Source: a bacterium
Lineage (GTDB): Bacteria; Actinomycetota; Acidimicrobiia; Spongiisociales; UBA5794
Direction of reading: 5' to 3'
Length of the DNA: 54,275 nt
NCBI GenBank assembly: GCA_024228555.1
Contig: JAAETI010000996.1
Coordinates: forward strand, 1-54,275
A program made the position numbers and the translations under genes. The notes below the pieces were generated by a model. That model ran no database searches and was not told the origin of the DNA. It saw only the letters and a program-made list of their open reading frames with translations. Positions 11,889 to 24,312 of this stretch are shown here, in pieces (position 1 is the first letter of the stretch; each line of letters starts with the position of its first letter).

Positions 11889-12374
11889 ATGCAACGCCTC
11901 TTCATATCTGTTGCCATCGCGCTTCTTGCCGTCTCCTGCAGTGGGACCAGCGTCGATATCTCAGAAGTCCCCAAACTGCCGCCGGTGACCGCAGAAGATC
12001 TGAATGTGCTTCTTGATGGGTCGACGACCCCAGTTGTCGTAAACGTGTGGGCCTCATGGTGTGTGCCGTGTCGCTCAGAAGCGCCGTTGCTCGAGAAAGC
12101 CGCATCTTCGACTGGCGAGGACGTCTTCTTCGTCGGACTCAACGTTCGTGACGATCAGGAGGGGGCCCGCGGCTTCATTGCAGAGTTCTTCCCGGACGCT
12201 CCCATCGAGCACCTCTTTGACCCGGATGGAGGTATCCCTCTCGAACTCGGCGGTACCCGCGGCGTGCCACTCACTTTTTTCTATGCAACCGGTGGCGAAC
12301 TGATCACAGTGCACAACGGCGTCATCGACGAGCGGACGCTGGCTCTGCAAATCGACGAGATTATGAGCCGGTAG
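11889..12374 (+). CDS. TlpA/ResA-like thioredoxin lipoprotein (CxxC)
   Basis: A 161-residue lipoprotein: the N-terminal hydrophobic stretch ends in a lipobox AVSC with C17 as the lipidated residue, placing the thioredoxin domain outside the membrane. The active site is WASWCVPCR (C58, C61) and the cis-proline is in RGVPLTFF. Family members reduce or oxidise exported proteins, for example in cytochrome c maturation. It is 1 nt from, and probably cotranscribed with, an Lgt-like membrane protein (TAGTG overlap). Compare the probable selenoprotein paralogue at 14142-14753, which has U instead of the first Cys. Confidence 0.88.
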   Translation: MQRLFISVAIALLAVSCSGTSVDISEVPKLPPVTAEDLNVLLDGSTTPVVVNVWASWCVPCRSEAPLLEKAASSTGEDVFFVGLNVRDDQEGARGFIAEFFPDAPIEHLFDPDGGIPLELGGTRGVPLTFFYATGGELITVHNGVIDERTLALQIDEIMSR

Positions 12375-13093
12375 TGGAGTTCACGCTTCTCGGTGCAGTG
12401 TTTGCCGGGATACTGCCGCTCTATGCCGTTCTCTACTGGGAAGCCAAACGAGCCAATGCGGCGTCTTGCACGCGCAATCTGTGGGACGTTGCGCTCACGG
12501 CCACCATCGTCGGCGTTTTCGTGGGCCGGGTTGCCGCGATGCTCGGAGACGGTGTATACCCGCTGACTCACCCTGCAGATCTGATCATCATTCGAGGCGG
12601 TGTTGCTACCGGACCGGCCACGGTTGCCGCGCTGGCGACGGTGGCCTGGCTAGGCCGCGAAGAATTGTGGGCTGTCATGGACGGGCTGGCTGCGGCGGCT
12701 TTGGCCGGTCTGGGTGGATGGCATCTGGGTTGTGTCGTGCGCGATGCATGCCTCGGAACACCGAGCGATCTTCCCTGGGCAATTGCCCAGGAAGGGAGCA
12801 CTGTCACTCGGCACCCCGTCGAGTTGTACGCAGCACTCGCCCTTTTTGTCGCCGCCGGACTTGTCGCGCTGTGGCGGGTCAGGTCGTACCCGCGACCCGG
12901 AGTCGCTGGCGGAGTCGCCCTTGCCGTGGCGAGTGCGGTGCGGCTTGCCACAGAGCCGCTCCGACCCAACCTCGGTGGCGGCCCGATCGGCTGGTACGTC
13001 CTCGGAGTTGCGATAGGACTTGGTGTTGCGGTTTGGCTCGGCCGCCAGCCCGCACCACTCGTAGACCGCCCACCGGCCGACTCTGACGTGTAG
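12374..13093 (+). CDS. Lgt-like polytopic membrane protein, divergent
   Basis: A 239-residue protein with about seven hydrophobic segments. It resembles prolipoprotein diacylglyceryl transferase in layout: IRGGVATGPATVA occupies the place of the catalytic HGG loop, and LGTPSDLPWAI with TRHPVELYAAL matches the Lgt signature and final His. However, the HGG His is Thr and the GRIGN-type Arg region is WHLGC, so lipoprotein modification activity is doubtful. It starts with GTG overlapping the stop of the TlpA-like gene, which suggests the two work together, perhaps in electron transfer to exported thiols. It could also be a redox membrane partner evolved from Lgt. Confidence 0.65.
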   Translation: MEFTLLGAVFAGILPLYAVLYWEAKRANAASCTRNLWDVALTATIVGVFVGRVAAMLGDGVYPLTHPADLIIIRGGVATGPATVAALATVAWLGREELWAVMDGLAAAALAGLGGWHLGCVVRDACLGTPSDLPWAIAQEGSTVTRHPVELYAALALFVAAGLVALWRVRSYPRPGVAGGVALAVASAVRLATEPLRPNLGGGPIGWYVLGVAIGLGVAVWLGRQPAPLVDRPPADSDV

Positions 13094-13232: not shown

Positions 13233-14075
13233 TTGGATCAAGAACACACCATTAGCGTCTCGCGGCGCACGGTGCGGCTGGCGTTGGCGTTTGCAGTCGT
13301 GTTGGCAGTATTGGCGCCCATTGCAGTTGTTGCAGCAGGCGGGACGTTTATCGACGACGACACGTCGATATTTGAGGATGACATCGAGTGGCTTGTTGCC
13401 AACGGCGTAACGTCCGGTTGCGGCGCCGACACCTATTGCCCAGAAGACAATGTGACTCGTGGCCAAATGGCGGCCTTCATGCACAGATTGGCGACCAACA
13501 AGGTCGTCGACGCGGCGACCGCAGACAGCGCAACCAGCGCCGACTCGGCGACTGAGGCAGACACGGCGCAGAACGCCAGATTGATAGACGGGCTCGACAG
13601 CACCGATTTCGCGTTGGGTGTGGTCGAGTTCTTTGATACCACCGGAGGTTCCACCCTCACCTCAGGGAGCACCGCGACATCAGCGTCTGTAACTGTGGAT
13701 GTTCCGCGACGCTGCTCGTTGCTGCATACCGAGAGTGTTGAGGTCCTTGTCATCGCTACTGGATACATGAACTCAAATAGCGCCGCTGCATCGGTGAGCA
13801 CCTACCTGTATGCAGATGGCGTCGAAACCAACCCTAGCTTCGTGAGACTCGATCTTGATGACACATCGTCTCGGACGCCGTTTAGCACTCAATGGCTGTA
13901 CGAGGTCGAGCCTGGTGAGCACACGTTCGAGGTCAGCCAGACCAACATCGGACCTTCAGCGATCGAGGTGTGGTATCCGAAGCTGTCGGCGCAGGTAATG
14001 GGTTCAGAATGCGATTCGATAGTCGTGCTGCCGAGTGAGCCAGCGGCGAAAGACCTGTTTGATCAGCAACGCTAG
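13233..14075 (+). CDS. Secreted protein with SLH-type domain
   Basis: A 280-residue protein with an N-terminal signal or anchor segment (about 14-38, after RRTVR). Residues 40-90 resemble one S-layer-homology repeat: DDIEWLVANGVTSGC, then YCPEDNVTRGQMAAFMHRLA. The rest is a beta-rich domain after an Ala/Ser/Thr-rich linker (DSATSADSATEADTAQNAR). SLH domains hold proteins to the cell wall; the exposed part has no family that I recognise. The start is TTG at 13233, with AAGGGG about 7 nt upstream. An 18-bp terminator hairpin follows the stop and is shared with the convergent gene. Confidence 0.75.
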   Translation: MDQEHTISVSRRTVRLALAFAVVLAVLAPIAVVAAGGTFIDDDTSIFEDDIEWLVANGVTSGCGADTYCPEDNVTRGQMAAFMHRLATNKVVDAATADSATSADSATEADTAQNARLIDGLDSTDFALGVVEFFDTTGGSTLTSGSTATSASVTVDVPRRCSLLHTESVEVLVIATGYMNSNSAAASVSTYLYADGVETNPSFVRLDLDDTSSRTPFSTQWLYEVEPGEHTFEVSQTNIGPSAIEVWYPKLSAQVMGSECDSIVVLPSEPAAKDLFDQQR

Positions 14076-14099: not shown

Positions 14100-14142
14100 G
14101 CAAAGAGCGGTCGGCCGGACCTATCGGCCGACCGCTCTTTGC
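14100..14142. terminator. Bidirectional 18-bp terminator hairpin
   Basis: An 18-bp perfect stem (14100-14117 with 14125-14142) and a 7-nt loop. The stem starts with AAAG and ends with CTTT, giving a short A/T edge on both sides. It serves the SLH gene on the plus strand and abuts the TAG stop of the thioredoxin-like gene on the minus strand. Confidence 0.85.
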
Positions 14143-14753
14143 TAGATGCTCGCCAGCAGATCAAACTTCTTCCGGAGCTCTTCCTCGCCAAGTACCCCGT
14201 ACCAACTGTCGACGACAATGTCGTCGCCGCTGATCATGACCGATGCGGGCTGGCCAAGGATGTCATACAGGTCCCAGATCGACTCGTCGAGACCCCACGA
14301 GACATTGCTCGTTAGAAGCTCGTCGGCGCGCTTGGTAGTGGAATCGAGATCGCTCATGCCGGCAACTGCGATGAATCTAATGCTGTCTTGATAATCCGAT
14401 GCAACTGCATCGACGACGGGGAGTTCCCGTCGGCAGCTGCCTCACCATTCTGCCCAGAAGACCACGTACACCGGTTTCTGTTCGGCACTCAGCTCGAAAC
14501 TCGACCCGTCCGCAAGCGTCAGCGCAAAATCGGGTGCCGGCGGGCCGTCAAACGACGGTGCAGGATCGACCTCCTCGCTGGGTGCCGGGGTGGCGTCGGG
14601 GGCTTCGGTGGGTGCCGCCTCCGGGGCCGGCGTGGCATCAGTGGCCGGCGCCGCTTCTGTCGCTGCTGCGGTAACAGGTGCCACTTCCTCCTCTGCTCCG
14701 CCACAGGCGGCGAGGACGAGGACAAATACAATGGCCAATGAGCGCTTTCGCAT
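14142..14753 (-). CDS. Thioredoxin-like (TlpA family) lipoprotein, probable selenoprotein with in-frame TGA
   Basis: Read through one TGA (14442-14444), this is a 203-residue protein. It has a lipobox LAAC (C17), a Pro/Ala/Glu-rich linker to about residue 70, then a complete thioredoxin domain: APDFALTLADGS, VYVVFWAEW, the active site, an intact C-terminal half and a cis-proline in GQPASVMI. The TGA is codon 104, exactly where the first catalytic Cys of WCxxC belongs, giving U-G-S-C with C107 kept. The frame is otherwise open, with no shift and no second stop until TAG at 14142. A hairpin fitting a bacterial SECIS follows the TGA. A TAGTGT box lies 7 nt before the ATG. A recent nonsense mutation is the alternative; sel genes are not in the window. 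Confidence 0.75.
14401..14440 (-). promoter_or_regulatory. Candidate bacterial SECIS hairpin
   Basis: Starting 1 nt after the TGA, minus strand: lower stem GCAGCTGC (14440-14433) with GCAGTTGC (14408-14401), 8 pairs including one G-U; upper stem CGACGGG (14432-14426) with CCCGTCG (14420-14414), 7 pairs; loop AACTC; 3' bulge TCGAT. The apical loop starts 17 nt after the TGA, within the range known for bacterial SECIS. If the top pair opens, the loop begins with G. Confidence 0.65.
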
Positions 14754-14834: not shown

Positions 14835-16541
14835 CTAGAGCGCCGACTGTTTGGCCTGCTCCTCTGCCATGAGCTCGCGACGCAATACCTTGCCGACGAA
14901 GGTCTTCGGTAGCTCATCGCGAAAGTCAATCGCCCGAGGCAGCTTGTAGCGCGCCAACCGATCTCGACAGAACTCGATCAAGTCTGCCTCGGTCAAGGTC
15001 TTGCCTTCCTCGAGGACCACAAAAGCCTTCACTCGCTGGTCCTGACCCCCCACCGGAACGCCAATGACACCCGCGTCAACAACATCTGGGTGCTCAAATA
15101 TGGCGTCCTCGACCTCGCGGGGATACACGTTGAACCCACCCGCAGCCAAAATCATGTCCTTCTTACGGTCGACGATGGCAAAACGGCCCATCCCATCCAT
15201 GACGGCGACATCACCGGTGTGTAGCCACACCTTGCCGTTCTTGTCGGTCCGCAAGACATCACGGGTGGCATCGGCCATGTTCCAATACCCCTGCATGACC
15301 TGCGGACCGCTGATGCACAGGACTCCGCGCTCCCCGGCTCCCATGACCTCGGTCTCACTGTCCTCGTCGACGATGCGGCAATCGGTGTTGGGGAGGGGCA
15401 GACCGATGAGTCCAGTCTCCGCTTTCCCATCTAGAGGGTTGGCATGCGTGACCGGCGACGCTTCACTCAGCCCGTATCCTTCGACAAGTCGCCCACCGGT
15501 TATCTCTTCGAAGTTGCGTTTCACCTCGGGCGGCAGCGCGGCGGCACCTGATATGCAGAAGTTGATAGAAGAGACATCGTATTTGCCACTGATCACGTGT
15601 CTGTGCCTGGCGATCGCTGAATAGAGGGTTGGCACTCCGGGGAAGTAGGTCGGATGATGTGCATCGATCACCTTCAGCACGTTGCCGAGGTCTCGCGCAT
15701 CCGGAATAAGCAACTGGCTGTAGCCGGCCGCAATCGAATGATTCATGGAGACCGTTGCCGAATAGCTGTGAGTAAGCGGCAAGGCCGTCAGCATTACCTC
15801 GTCGCCCTCAACTGCCTCGGGAGCCCAGGCTTTCGTTTGATGGGCATTGGCCATCATGTTGGCGTGAGTCAGCATCGCCCCTTTGGGTACGCCGGTGGTG
15901 CCGCCGGTGTACATCAACATCGCCAGATCTTGCGAAGCAACCTCAACAGGCTGCGGCGCATGATCGGTGAGGACATCCGTCCACTCAGATGTACCGGCGT
16001 CCGAGGCGATGTCGACCTTGTGACCACCCTTGCGCTCGCGCAGGATGGTGAACAGAGCCTTGAGCGGCCCCCTGAAATACTCCTTGATATTGGTGACCAC
16101 AACGTGCTCGATGGGAGTGTCGAGGCGAGCTTCCTTGACACGGTCGTACATCATCGAAAGCACAATCGCGAACCGCGAACCAGCGTCCGTAGCCTGGTGA
16201 GCAAACTCGGTAGGGGTATACAGAGGATTCGAGGGCACTGCGACTGCTCCGCATCGCCAGACTGCGTGATAGGCCATAACAAGCTGCGGACAGTTCGGCA
16301 TGAACAGCGACACCCGATCCCCCGGAGCGAGACCCCTGTCCTGGAGGCCTGCCGCAAGCCGGTCGACAATCTCGTCGACCTGCCGGTAGGTCAGTGTCCG
16401 ATCGAAGAAGATCAAGGCCGGTGTTTCCGGATACTTTTCGGCGGACCGGCGCAACAGACCGTCAAGAGGACCGTCGGGCCAGGTGACCTCGAAAGGCACA
16501 CCGTCCTGGTAGGCCTGATGCCACAACCTTGCTTCGCTCAT
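14835..16541 (-). CDS. Long-chain fatty-acid-CoA ligase (FadD-like)
   Basis: A 568-residue acyl-adenylate-forming enzyme that activates a fatty acid with ATP and CoA. The P-loop-like motif MYTGGTTGVPKGAMLTH is near residue 212, EGYGLSEASP near 358, WLHTGDVA near 438, and the catalytic Lys is in FVGKVLRREL at the C-terminus. The N-terminal region matches long-chain FadD proteins. AAGGA precedes the ATG by 5 nt. It starts 17 nt after trpD ends on the same strand, so the two may be cotranscribed, though no metabolic link is obvious. The chain-length preference cannot be read from sequence. Confidence 0.88.
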   Translation of the reverse strand: MSEARLWHQAYQDGVPFEVTWPDGPLDGLLRRSAEKYPETPALIFFDRTLTYRQVDEIVDRLAAGLQDRGLAPGDRVSLFMPNCPQLVMAYHAVWRCGAVAVPSNPLYTPTEFAHQATDAGSRFAIVLSMMYDRVKEARLDTPIEHVVVTNIKEYFRGPLKALFTILRERKGGHKVDIASDAGTSEWTDVLTDHAPQPVEVASQDLAMLMYTGGTTGVPKGAMLTHANMMANAHQTKAWAPEAVEGDEVMLTALPLTHSYSATVSMNHSIAAGYSQLLIPDARDLGNVLKVIDAHHPTYFPGVPTLYSAIARHRHVISGKYDVSSINFCISGAAALPPEVKRNFEEITGGRLVEGYGLSEASPVTHANPLDGKAETGLIGLPLPNTDCRIVDEDSETEVMGAGERGVLCISGPQVMQGYWNMADATRDVLRTDKNGKVWLHTGDVAVMDGMGRFAIVDRKKDMILAAGGFNVYPREVEDAIFEHPDVVDAGVIGVPVGGQDQRVKAFVVLEEGKTLTEADLIEFCRDRLARYKLPRAIDFRDELPKTFVGKVLRRELMAEEQAKQSAL

Positions 16542-16558: not shown

Positions 16559-17575
16559 CTAGCCGGAAAACGCCACCGCTCGATCCAGCACCGTCAGCGC
16601 ACTGCCCGAGTCGATCGACTCCGCAGCCAGACCCATTGCATCACTAAACCCTTCGGCAAGACCTGCTGCAACGATCGCCGGCGCCGCATTCACCAAAGCA
16701 ATATCCCGTTTCGGACCGCTTGCTCCAGCCAGGATCGACTTAGTGATTGCAACGTTCTCACTGGGATCGCCACCCATCAGATCCTCGATCTGGGCACGGG
16801 CAACACCAAAATCCTCTGGGGTGAACTCGGCGTGGGTGATCTCACCGTTGCGGAGCCTGTAGATGAACGATGGGCCAGTCGTAGTGAGCTCGTCGAGACC
16901 GTCCTCACCGTAGAAGACAAAAGCAGCCTTCGCTCCGAGGTTGGTAAGAACCTCGATCATGAGCTTCGCCATACTGGGGTCGGAAACACCAAGGGCATAT
17001 CGTTTTGCCCCGGCCGGATTGCACAGCGGGCCGAGAAAATTGAAGACGGTGCGAAACCCAAGCTGCCGTCGCACCGGACCCGCATGCCGCATGGCGGGGT
17101 GGTACCGGGGAGCAAACATGAAGCCAAACCCGATCTCCCTGACCATCTGAGCCGTGGTTTCCGGGCTTGCGTCGAGGTCAACCCCCAGCGCTTCCAACAG
17201 ATCAGCCGAACCTGTTGGGGAGGATGCAGCCCTGTTTCCATGCTTGGCAATCTTCACGCCAGCGCCTGCGGCGATGAACGCCGCAGTAGTTGAGATATTG
17301 AATGTTCCGGACCTGTCACCACCCGTTCCAACAAGATCAACAATGGGTTCGTCGATCTCGATGGGGCTCGCTGCGGCTCGCATTGCGGCAACGAATCCAG
17401 TCATCTCATCCGCTGTTTCTCCCTTGGAGCGCAAAACGGTCAGGAAAGCAGCGATCTGCGCTTCTGTTGCCTCGCCCGCCATGATGCTGCCCATAACGGT
17501 GTAGGCCTCGGCCTTGGTTAGATGGTGCCCGTCAAAAAGACTGGCGAATACGTCTGGCCACAAAACTGCTGTCAT
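16559..17575 (-). CDS. trpD: TrpD, anthranilate phosphoribosyltransferase
   Basis: A 338-residue enzyme of normal length that joins anthranilate to PRPP in tryptophan synthesis. The PRPP/Mg motif DLVGTGGDRSGTFNISTTAA is near residue 80, KHGNRAASSPTGSADLLEALG near 110, and the anthranilate-site Arg is in PAMRHAGPVRRQLG; FNFLGPLCNPA follows. No other trp gene is in the window, so the pathway is scattered. A TAGCGT box lies 7 nt before the ATG and no Shine-Dalgarno is seen. FadD-like follows 17 nt downstream. Confidence 0.95.
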   Translation of the reverse strand: MTAVLWPDVFASLFDGHHLTKAEAYTVMGSIMAGEATEAQIAAFLTVLRSKGETADEMTGFVAAMRAAASPIEIDEPIVDLVGTGGDRSGTFNISTTAAFIAAGAGVKIAKHGNRAASSPTGSADLLEALGVDLDASPETTAQMVREIGFGFMFAPRYHPAMRHAGPVRRQLGFRTVFNFLGPLCNPAGAKRYALGVSDPSMAKLMIEVLTNLGAKAAFVFYGEDGLDELTTTGPSFIYRLRNGEITHAEFTPEDFGVARAQIEDLMGGDPSENVAITKSILAGASGPKRDIALVNAAPAIVAAGLAEGFSDAMGLAAESIDSGSALTVLDRAVAFSG

Positions 17576-23843: not shown

Positions 23844-23875
23844 AACGATCGGTGGTTTGGGGGTACGCTCTCCTC

Positions 23876-24281
23876 GAGTCAGGCGGACGGCCGCGACCGG
23901 AGCAATCCGGCCGAGGAAAGTCCGGACTCCGCAGGGCATGGTGCTGGGTAACACCCAGGCGGGGCAACCCGATGGAACAGTGCAACAGAAAGCAGACCGC
24001 CTGTGCGAACCCTATCGGGTTCGTTGGCGGAACCTTCGGTTCCGCTGCGAGCCTTGTAGTTAGTGCAGGTAAGGGTGAAACGGTGGTGTAAGAGACCACC
24101 AGCGTCTCGGGTGACCGGGGCGGCTAGGTAAACCCCTCCAGGAGCAAGGTCAAGCAGGGAGAGAGCTGCCCGCTCGCTAACCCCAGGTAGACCGCACGAG
24201 CCTTGTCAGTAATGCATGGCCCAGATAGATGGTCGTCGCCGGTCTCTTGACCGGTACAGAATCCGGCTTACAACCTGACTC
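23876..24281 (+). ncRNA. rnpB: RNase P RNA (class A)
   Basis: The catalytic RNA that matures tRNA 5' ends, about 406 nt. The 5' end GAGTCAGGCGG pairs with 3' CCTGACTC (P1). Conserved core blocks are GAGGAAAGTCCGGACTCC, the ACAGAAAGCAGACCGCC block, GGTAAGGGTGAAACGGTG with the GUAAGAG that follows, and AGATAGATGGTCG near the 3' side with GGTACAGAATCCGGCTTAC before P1 closes. The length and blocks fit bacterial type A RNase P RNA of actinobacteria. The exact ends are set from P1 pairing only. Confidence 0.95.
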
Positions 24282-24284
24282 GCA

Positions 24285-24312
24285 AAAGGAGCCCCCACTC
24301 GGGGGCTCCTTT
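24285..24312 (+). terminator. rnpB terminator
   Basis: A 12-bp perfect stem (24285-24296 with 24301-24312), loop ACTC, ending in TTTC. It begins 3 nt after P1 closes. Confidence 0.9.

Follow-up and report, generated by a model that had tools for sequence, protein, structure and literature searches.

We predict that a minus-strand gene in an acidimicrobial genome (assembly GCA_024228555.1, contig JAAETI010000996.1) encodes a lipoprotein with a TlpA/ResA-like thioredoxin fold, and that its in-frame UGA, codon 104, is almost certainly read as selenocysteine (Sec). The gene lies in a stretch of 54,275 nucleotides (hereafter, the window). The Sec reading rests on the frame and the position of the UGA within it, the sel genes and tRNA-Sec of the genome, the retention of TGA in all orthologues read in detail, a constrained and covarying hairpin downstream, and natural replacements of the codon by Cys. 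An earlier sequence-only reading had called the gene a probable selenoprotein, and that call was borne out by the sel genes and tRNA-Sec, the conservation of both the TGA and the 3′ half, and the SECIS-like covarying hairpin. The features within and next to the gene are as follows.

14142..14753, minus strand: predicted selenoprotein gene, TlpA/ResA-like thioredoxin-fold lipoprotein; 203 codons plus TAG, with one in-frame UGA read as Sec
14703..14705, minus strand: Cys17, lipobox cysteine (LAAC); at least 90% conserved in alignment A1
14442..14444, minus strand: UGA codon 104, predicted Sec at the first (nucleophilic) position of UxxC; TGA in 61 of 61 orthologues
14433..14435, minus strand: Cys107, resolving Cys of UxxC; invariant in alignment A1
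14414..14432, minus strand: conserved core of the predicted SECIS hairpin, 7-bp stem CGACGGG/CCCGUCG with a 5-nt loop; begins 9 nt past the UGA
14247..14249, minus strand: Pro169, probable cis-proline, after invariant Gln168 in the alignment
14100..14142, no strand: probable bidirectional terminator, an 18-bp inverted repeat between converging genes, read in the sequence

Gene and protein

Translation of the minus strand from 14753 to 14142 gave 203 codons with a single internal TGA and a TAG at the end. The single TGA of the frame, codon 104, was thus confirmed to occupy the site of the first catalytic Cys, as the sequence-only reading had stated without naming the strand; the plus-strand translation of 14142-14753 was not that of the selenolipoprotein. 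The context of codon 104 was VYVVFWAEW*GSCRRELP (asterisk, TGA; motif FWAEW-U-GSC), in which the UGA aligned with the first Cys of WCxxC, and orthologues with Cys exist. By inspection, the N-terminus, MRKRSLAIVFVLVLAAC, comprised a putative signal sequence and the lipobox LAAC with Cys17, followed by an Ala/Pro/Thr-rich low-complexity linker of about 50 residues. When the TGA was read as a residue, residues 70-180 matched the Pfam families AhpC-TSA (4e-9), Thioredoxin (5e-9), and Redoxin (2e-8), all over the Pfam cut-offs, in agreement with the earlier claim of a full thioredoxin domain. The Cys107 and cis-proline that had been pointed out after the TGA also held: Cys107 was invariant, and Pro169 is probably the cis-proline, a role that we infer from the thioredoxin fold. 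The thioredoxin fold, the WCxxC-type site with U for the first C, and this probable cis-proline place the protein in the TlpA/ResA-like class.

Conservation of the UGA across an order

A protein search of 99 related genomes recovered full-length relatives, most of them with exactly one TGA. We read 61 orthologues in detail and found the TGA at this codon, the preceding W, and the C three residues after it in every one (61/61 each), and the thioredoxin domain continued past the TGA with the full 3′ half kept. Under translation table 11, the frame stops at the UGA and leaves a 103-aa ORF, as would be seen if the TGA were an ordinary stop or a sequencing or assembly error, the gene then being a pseudogene or encoding a truncated protein of 103 residues. 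This explanation is vanishingly unlikely, given that genomes assembled independently of one another share the TGA, that a conserved domain follows it, and that the hairpin downstream is constrained. A pseudogene or sequencing error was rejected because different species keep both the TGA and the 3′ half, and no decayed, truncated frame was seen among relatives; the earlier arguments that the TGA does not fall on this codon by chance and that the 3′ half is intact therefore stood. Standard annotation ends the gene at the UGA, so that in these genomes the protein is either truncated or overlooked.

Within Acidimicrobiia, a single order has the predicted selenolipoprotein in most of its members. 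In a class-wide draw of 296 genomes, a close match was found in 75, all in the same order; among these, the match in one genome (G270) was a more distant Cys paralogue (L171). In a phylum-wide draw of 396 genomes, only weak matches (82-99 bits) occurred outside the order, compared with at least 211 bits inside it. Close relatives were thus seen, in the class and phylum draws, only in this order, which is probably GTDB UBA5794: the named records with good matches were metagenome-assembled genomes of Acidimicrobiia and other Actinomycetota, including UBA5794, together with a small number filed under Acidobacteria or simply as bacterium. The family signature is FWAEWUxxC(R)RELPV, and the domain has an invariant QP shortly before its end. 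Searching plasmids by tblastn gave only partial matches with less than 60% identity. Three of the weak matches outside the order, from more distant Actinomycetota, were themselves Sec-containing TlpA-like lipoproteins (L192, WESWU; L193, WAPFU; L194, WAPWU), and another weak match, L196, closely resembles L192 but has Cys.

Selenocysteine machinery

The source genome is a 5.4-Mb draft in 1027 contigs with an estimated completeness of 98%. On contig C574 it encodes selA (422 bits, over the cut-off) and, immediately after it, selB (310 bits, both parts). A selD gene (396 bits) lies on contig C141, and contig C519 carries a tRNA-Sec, which ARAGORN called as tRNA-SeC with anticodon TCA. Hence selA, selB, selC, and selD, for which the sequence-only reading had suggested looking, were all present in the same genome. 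Among the 59 genomes that were at least 90% complete, 46 had both the TGA gene and selA, 1 had the TGA gene without selA, 9 had selA only, and 3 had neither (Fisher p 0.02, with relatedness ignored). In other words, selA accompanied the TGA gene in 46 of 47 such genomes, and the exception (G027) has a tRNA-Sec.

As a separate observation, the selD gene of the source genome (L010; C141, 26188-27111, minus strand) is itself predicted to encode a selenoprotein, with an in-frame TGA in SHGAG-U-ACK. This sequence matches the selenophosphate synthetase motif UxxK listed in PMC13188914.

A conserved hairpin after the UGA

In the source genome, the predicted hairpin spans 14397-14444 (−27.3 kcal/mol, z −3.3). 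Its core stem lies 12-30 nt from the U of the UGA, the position expected of a bacterial SECIS element being taken from PMC1088965, and the loop is AGUUG in most sequences. The core CGGG-AGUUG-CCCG was held at synonymous sites across orthologues: Arg at +5 was CGG in 61/61 (33% elsewhere in the same genes), Pro at +8 was CCC in 60/61 (34% elsewhere), and Leu at +7 was TTG in 47/61 (9.5% elsewhere). The stem also covaried. With the U of the UGA numbered 0, pair 13-29 was formed in 84 of 87 distinct Sec sequences, compared with an average of 61.6 and a maximum of 70 in 5000 shuffles that ignored relatedness, and its types were G-C (54), A-U (24), G-U (3), C-G (2), and U-A (1). Pair 14-28 was formed in 81 of 87 (shuffle average 70.9, again with relatedness ignored). 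Both sides of the stem had changed in L180 (CUACGGG/CCCGUAG) and L081 (GCAAGGG/CCCUUGC). The folding energy of the family was modestly low relative to a synonymous-codon null (mean z −0.89; control window, −0.09). At the gathering threshold, Rfam gave no SECIS family match over the window, its only match being an RNase P RNA.

Natural replacements by cysteine

Homologues were also checked, as had been proposed, for Cys or TGA at this codon, and an orthologue with a Cys codon was found in five genomes (G076, L084; G292, L167; G212, L168; G248, L170; G257, L169). In the first four, there was no tRNA-Sec match and no SelB over the cut-off; G257 is an exception, as it has a Cys orthologue yet keeps both tRNA-Sec and SelB. 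The stem was mostly broken in the five Cys genes and also in a Cys second copy (L085, in G079). Decayed hairpins, together with a missing tRNA-Sec in four of the five Cys genomes, are what would be expected if a real Sec codon had been replaced. In the tree, the Cys rows were nested inside the Sec clade, requiring five changes, at least two of which were forced by well-supported branches. Because of this nesting, Sec appears to be ancestral in the clade and to have been replaced more than once, with the tree being poorly resolved.

These replacements also bear on whether the UGA is read as another amino acid, either through a general change of the code or as Cys or Trp by a suppressor tRNA. 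The UGA does stand where Cys is expected, and insertion of Cys would yield a working protein. Nevertheless, this reading is very improbable: each gene has a single in-frame TGA, a true tRNA-Sec is present with SelA, SelB, and SelD, the downstream hairpin would be needed for Sec only, and TGC is the codon found in the Cys orthologues whose genomes lack tRNA-Sec. A general code change was rejected on conservation and because TGA is the terminal stop of many orthologues. Reading UGA 104 as Sec, we expect that SelB and tRNA-Sec would decode it under the direction of the hairpin just downstream. Because Sec has been replaced by Cys in nature, mostly in genomes lacking tRNA-Sec, Sec and Cys forms of the enzyme could be compared directly.

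Relation to known selenoproteins

The sequence-only reading considered an extracytoplasmic UxxC lipoprotein of the TlpA type unusual, which was overstated, as there are precedents in PMC13188914 and in NCBIfam NF041057. The UxxC selenoproteins in PMC13188914 include ‘thiol-disulfide isomerase-like’ (cd02966), ‘Prx-like thiol:disulfide oxidoreductase’ (PF00578), and ‘redoxin family’ (PF08534) proteins, and the Sargasso Sea study (PMC1088965) in part also lists UxxC selenoproteins whose domains are TlpA-like, AhpC/TSA, or redoxin. The cd02966 and PF08534 selenoproteins share with the present protein the TlpA-like thioredoxin fold, Sec at the first position of UxxC, and a bacterial SECIS after the UGA; going by their descriptions, they are set apart from it by its being an order-wide acidimicrobial lipoprotein family with its own signature and invariant QP. 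The Rcas_1661 family thioredoxin-like (seleno)lipoprotein (NF041057, listed as DsbG-like in PMC13188914) is likewise a Sec-containing thioredoxin-like lipoprotein, but our protein scored 23.7 bits against a cut-off of 190 and is not a member. It is also not a member of the ResA-like WAxxUGC family (NF041054; 26.1 bits against 300), its motif being UxxC, not UGC. It is probably a new subfamily or family within a kind of selenoprotein that was known before. We found no paper on Acidimicrobiia selenoproteins among the open-licence papers searched, and our search for TlpA or lipoprotein selenoproteins in Actinobacteria returned only reviews and unrelated papers. The family adds a predicted order-wide, Sec-dominant extracytoplasmic selenoprotein to Actinomycetota.

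Structure and probable role

Given an alignment of 27 relatives, AlphaFold modelled a loose linker and then, from residue 71, a confident thioredoxin domain (block pLDDT 93-98). In Foldseek, the nearest PDB folds were DsbF of Mycobacterium tuberculosis (Mtb; best match), ResA (TM-score up to 0.90 by target length), the pneumococcal Etrx lipoproteins, and TlpA; by sequence, the top PDB matches were Etrx1 and Etrx2 (72.5 and 67.3 bits). The fold and active-site layout are common to ResA, StoA, TlpA, and CcmG, but these have Cys, whereas the predicted selenolipoprotein has Sec, lacks the CEPC motif, and comes from a genome in which ResB was not found. The pneumococcal proteins are likewise lipoprotein thioredoxins of a monoderm, but their active site has Cys.

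We propose that the protein would be exported and anchored by a lipid on Cys17, presumably at the outer face of the membrane, with the flexible linker as a spacer. Sec104 as nucleophile and Cys107 as resolving residue would then reduce, or exchange, extracytoplasmic disulfides or oxidised thiols, with electrons most likely crossing the membrane via CcdA/DsbD-type carriers. Two CcdA/DsbD_TM proteins are encoded in the genome, one of them beside another CxxC lipoprotein. Their presence, together with no ResB in a genome estimated to be 98% complete, favors a CcdA-fed extracytoplasmic thiol-disulfide reductase. Taken alone, we hold this role to be about evenly balanced, with the reductase direction and the CcdA-type donor both putative.

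More specific roles were weighed against the fold and sequence relatives. A ResA-type function, that is, reduction of apocytochrome c for haem attachment, would fit with ResA being among the nearest folds and sequence relatives and with the CcdA-like carriers, but it is unlikely: the failure to find ResB argues against cytochrome c maturation, the CEPC motif is absent, and the score against the ResA model (NCBIfam NF002854) was 52.5 bits for a cut-off of 170. Also improbable, though somewhat less so, is that the protein oxidises or isomerises secreted proteins, like DsbF/DsbE of Mtb. DsbF was the best structural match, and monoderm actinobacteria fold exported proteins oxidatively, but selenol nucleophiles are usually associated with reduction. 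In a more restricted version of the reductase explanation, the protein would donate electrons to enzymes of surface repair or peroxide reduction, much as the Etrx lipoproteins of pneumococcus serve a surface methionine sulfoxide reductase (Msr). The Etrx matches, the shared lipoprotein nature, and the resistance of Sec to over-oxidation make this a tentative possibility, against which no Msr or peroxidase gene was present among the annotated neighbours.

Neighbourhood

The neighbours of the predicted selenoprotein gene were compared across 60 related loci.

16559..17575, minus strand: anthranilate phosphoribosyltransferase-like (trpD), upstream; kept in 47/60 loci
14835..16541, minus strand: AMP-binding (acyl-CoA synthetase-like), upstream; seen in only 6/60 loci
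12374..13093, plus strand: prolipoprotein diacylglyceryl transferase (LGT) family, convergent; matched in 21/60 loci
11889..12374, plus strand: CxxC thioredoxin-like lipoprotein (WASWCVPC), an ordinary Cys paralogue, convergent; matched in 27/60 loci

None of the neighbouring genes names a substrate. The CxxC lipoprotein and LGT-family matches were not always adjacent at related loci, and these neighbours and trpD may be incidental. At 11889-13093, the CxxC lipoprotein gene is followed by that of the divergent LGT-family protein, an arrangement recurrently convergent to the selenoprotein gene. An S-layer homology domain protein is encoded at 13233-14075, between the LGT and selenoprotein genes (matched in 2/60 loci), and the RNase P RNA, of bacterial class A, is located at 23875-24286 of the window.

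A broader picture can be offered tentatively: a cell-surface, Se-dependent thiol relay might be an ancestral core trait of the whole acidimicrobial order, in which CcdA-type carriers would feed one to three UxxC lipoproteins, which would work together with the CxxC lipoprotein and the LGT-family protein encoded convergently; other TlpA lipoproteins containing Sec would have arisen on several occasions across Actinomycetota.

Two further observations concern gene copies and relatives. Four genomes (G225, G254, G282, and G301), all of one genus-level group (f2 g47), carry three tandem copies of the selenoprotein gene (L172-L175), each with a TGA. Additionally, a second lipoprotein family (L086-L091), about 30% identical and found mostly in family f7, has its TGA in WAPHUPTCRREAP and a longer stem (CGUCGGGA/UCCCGACG).
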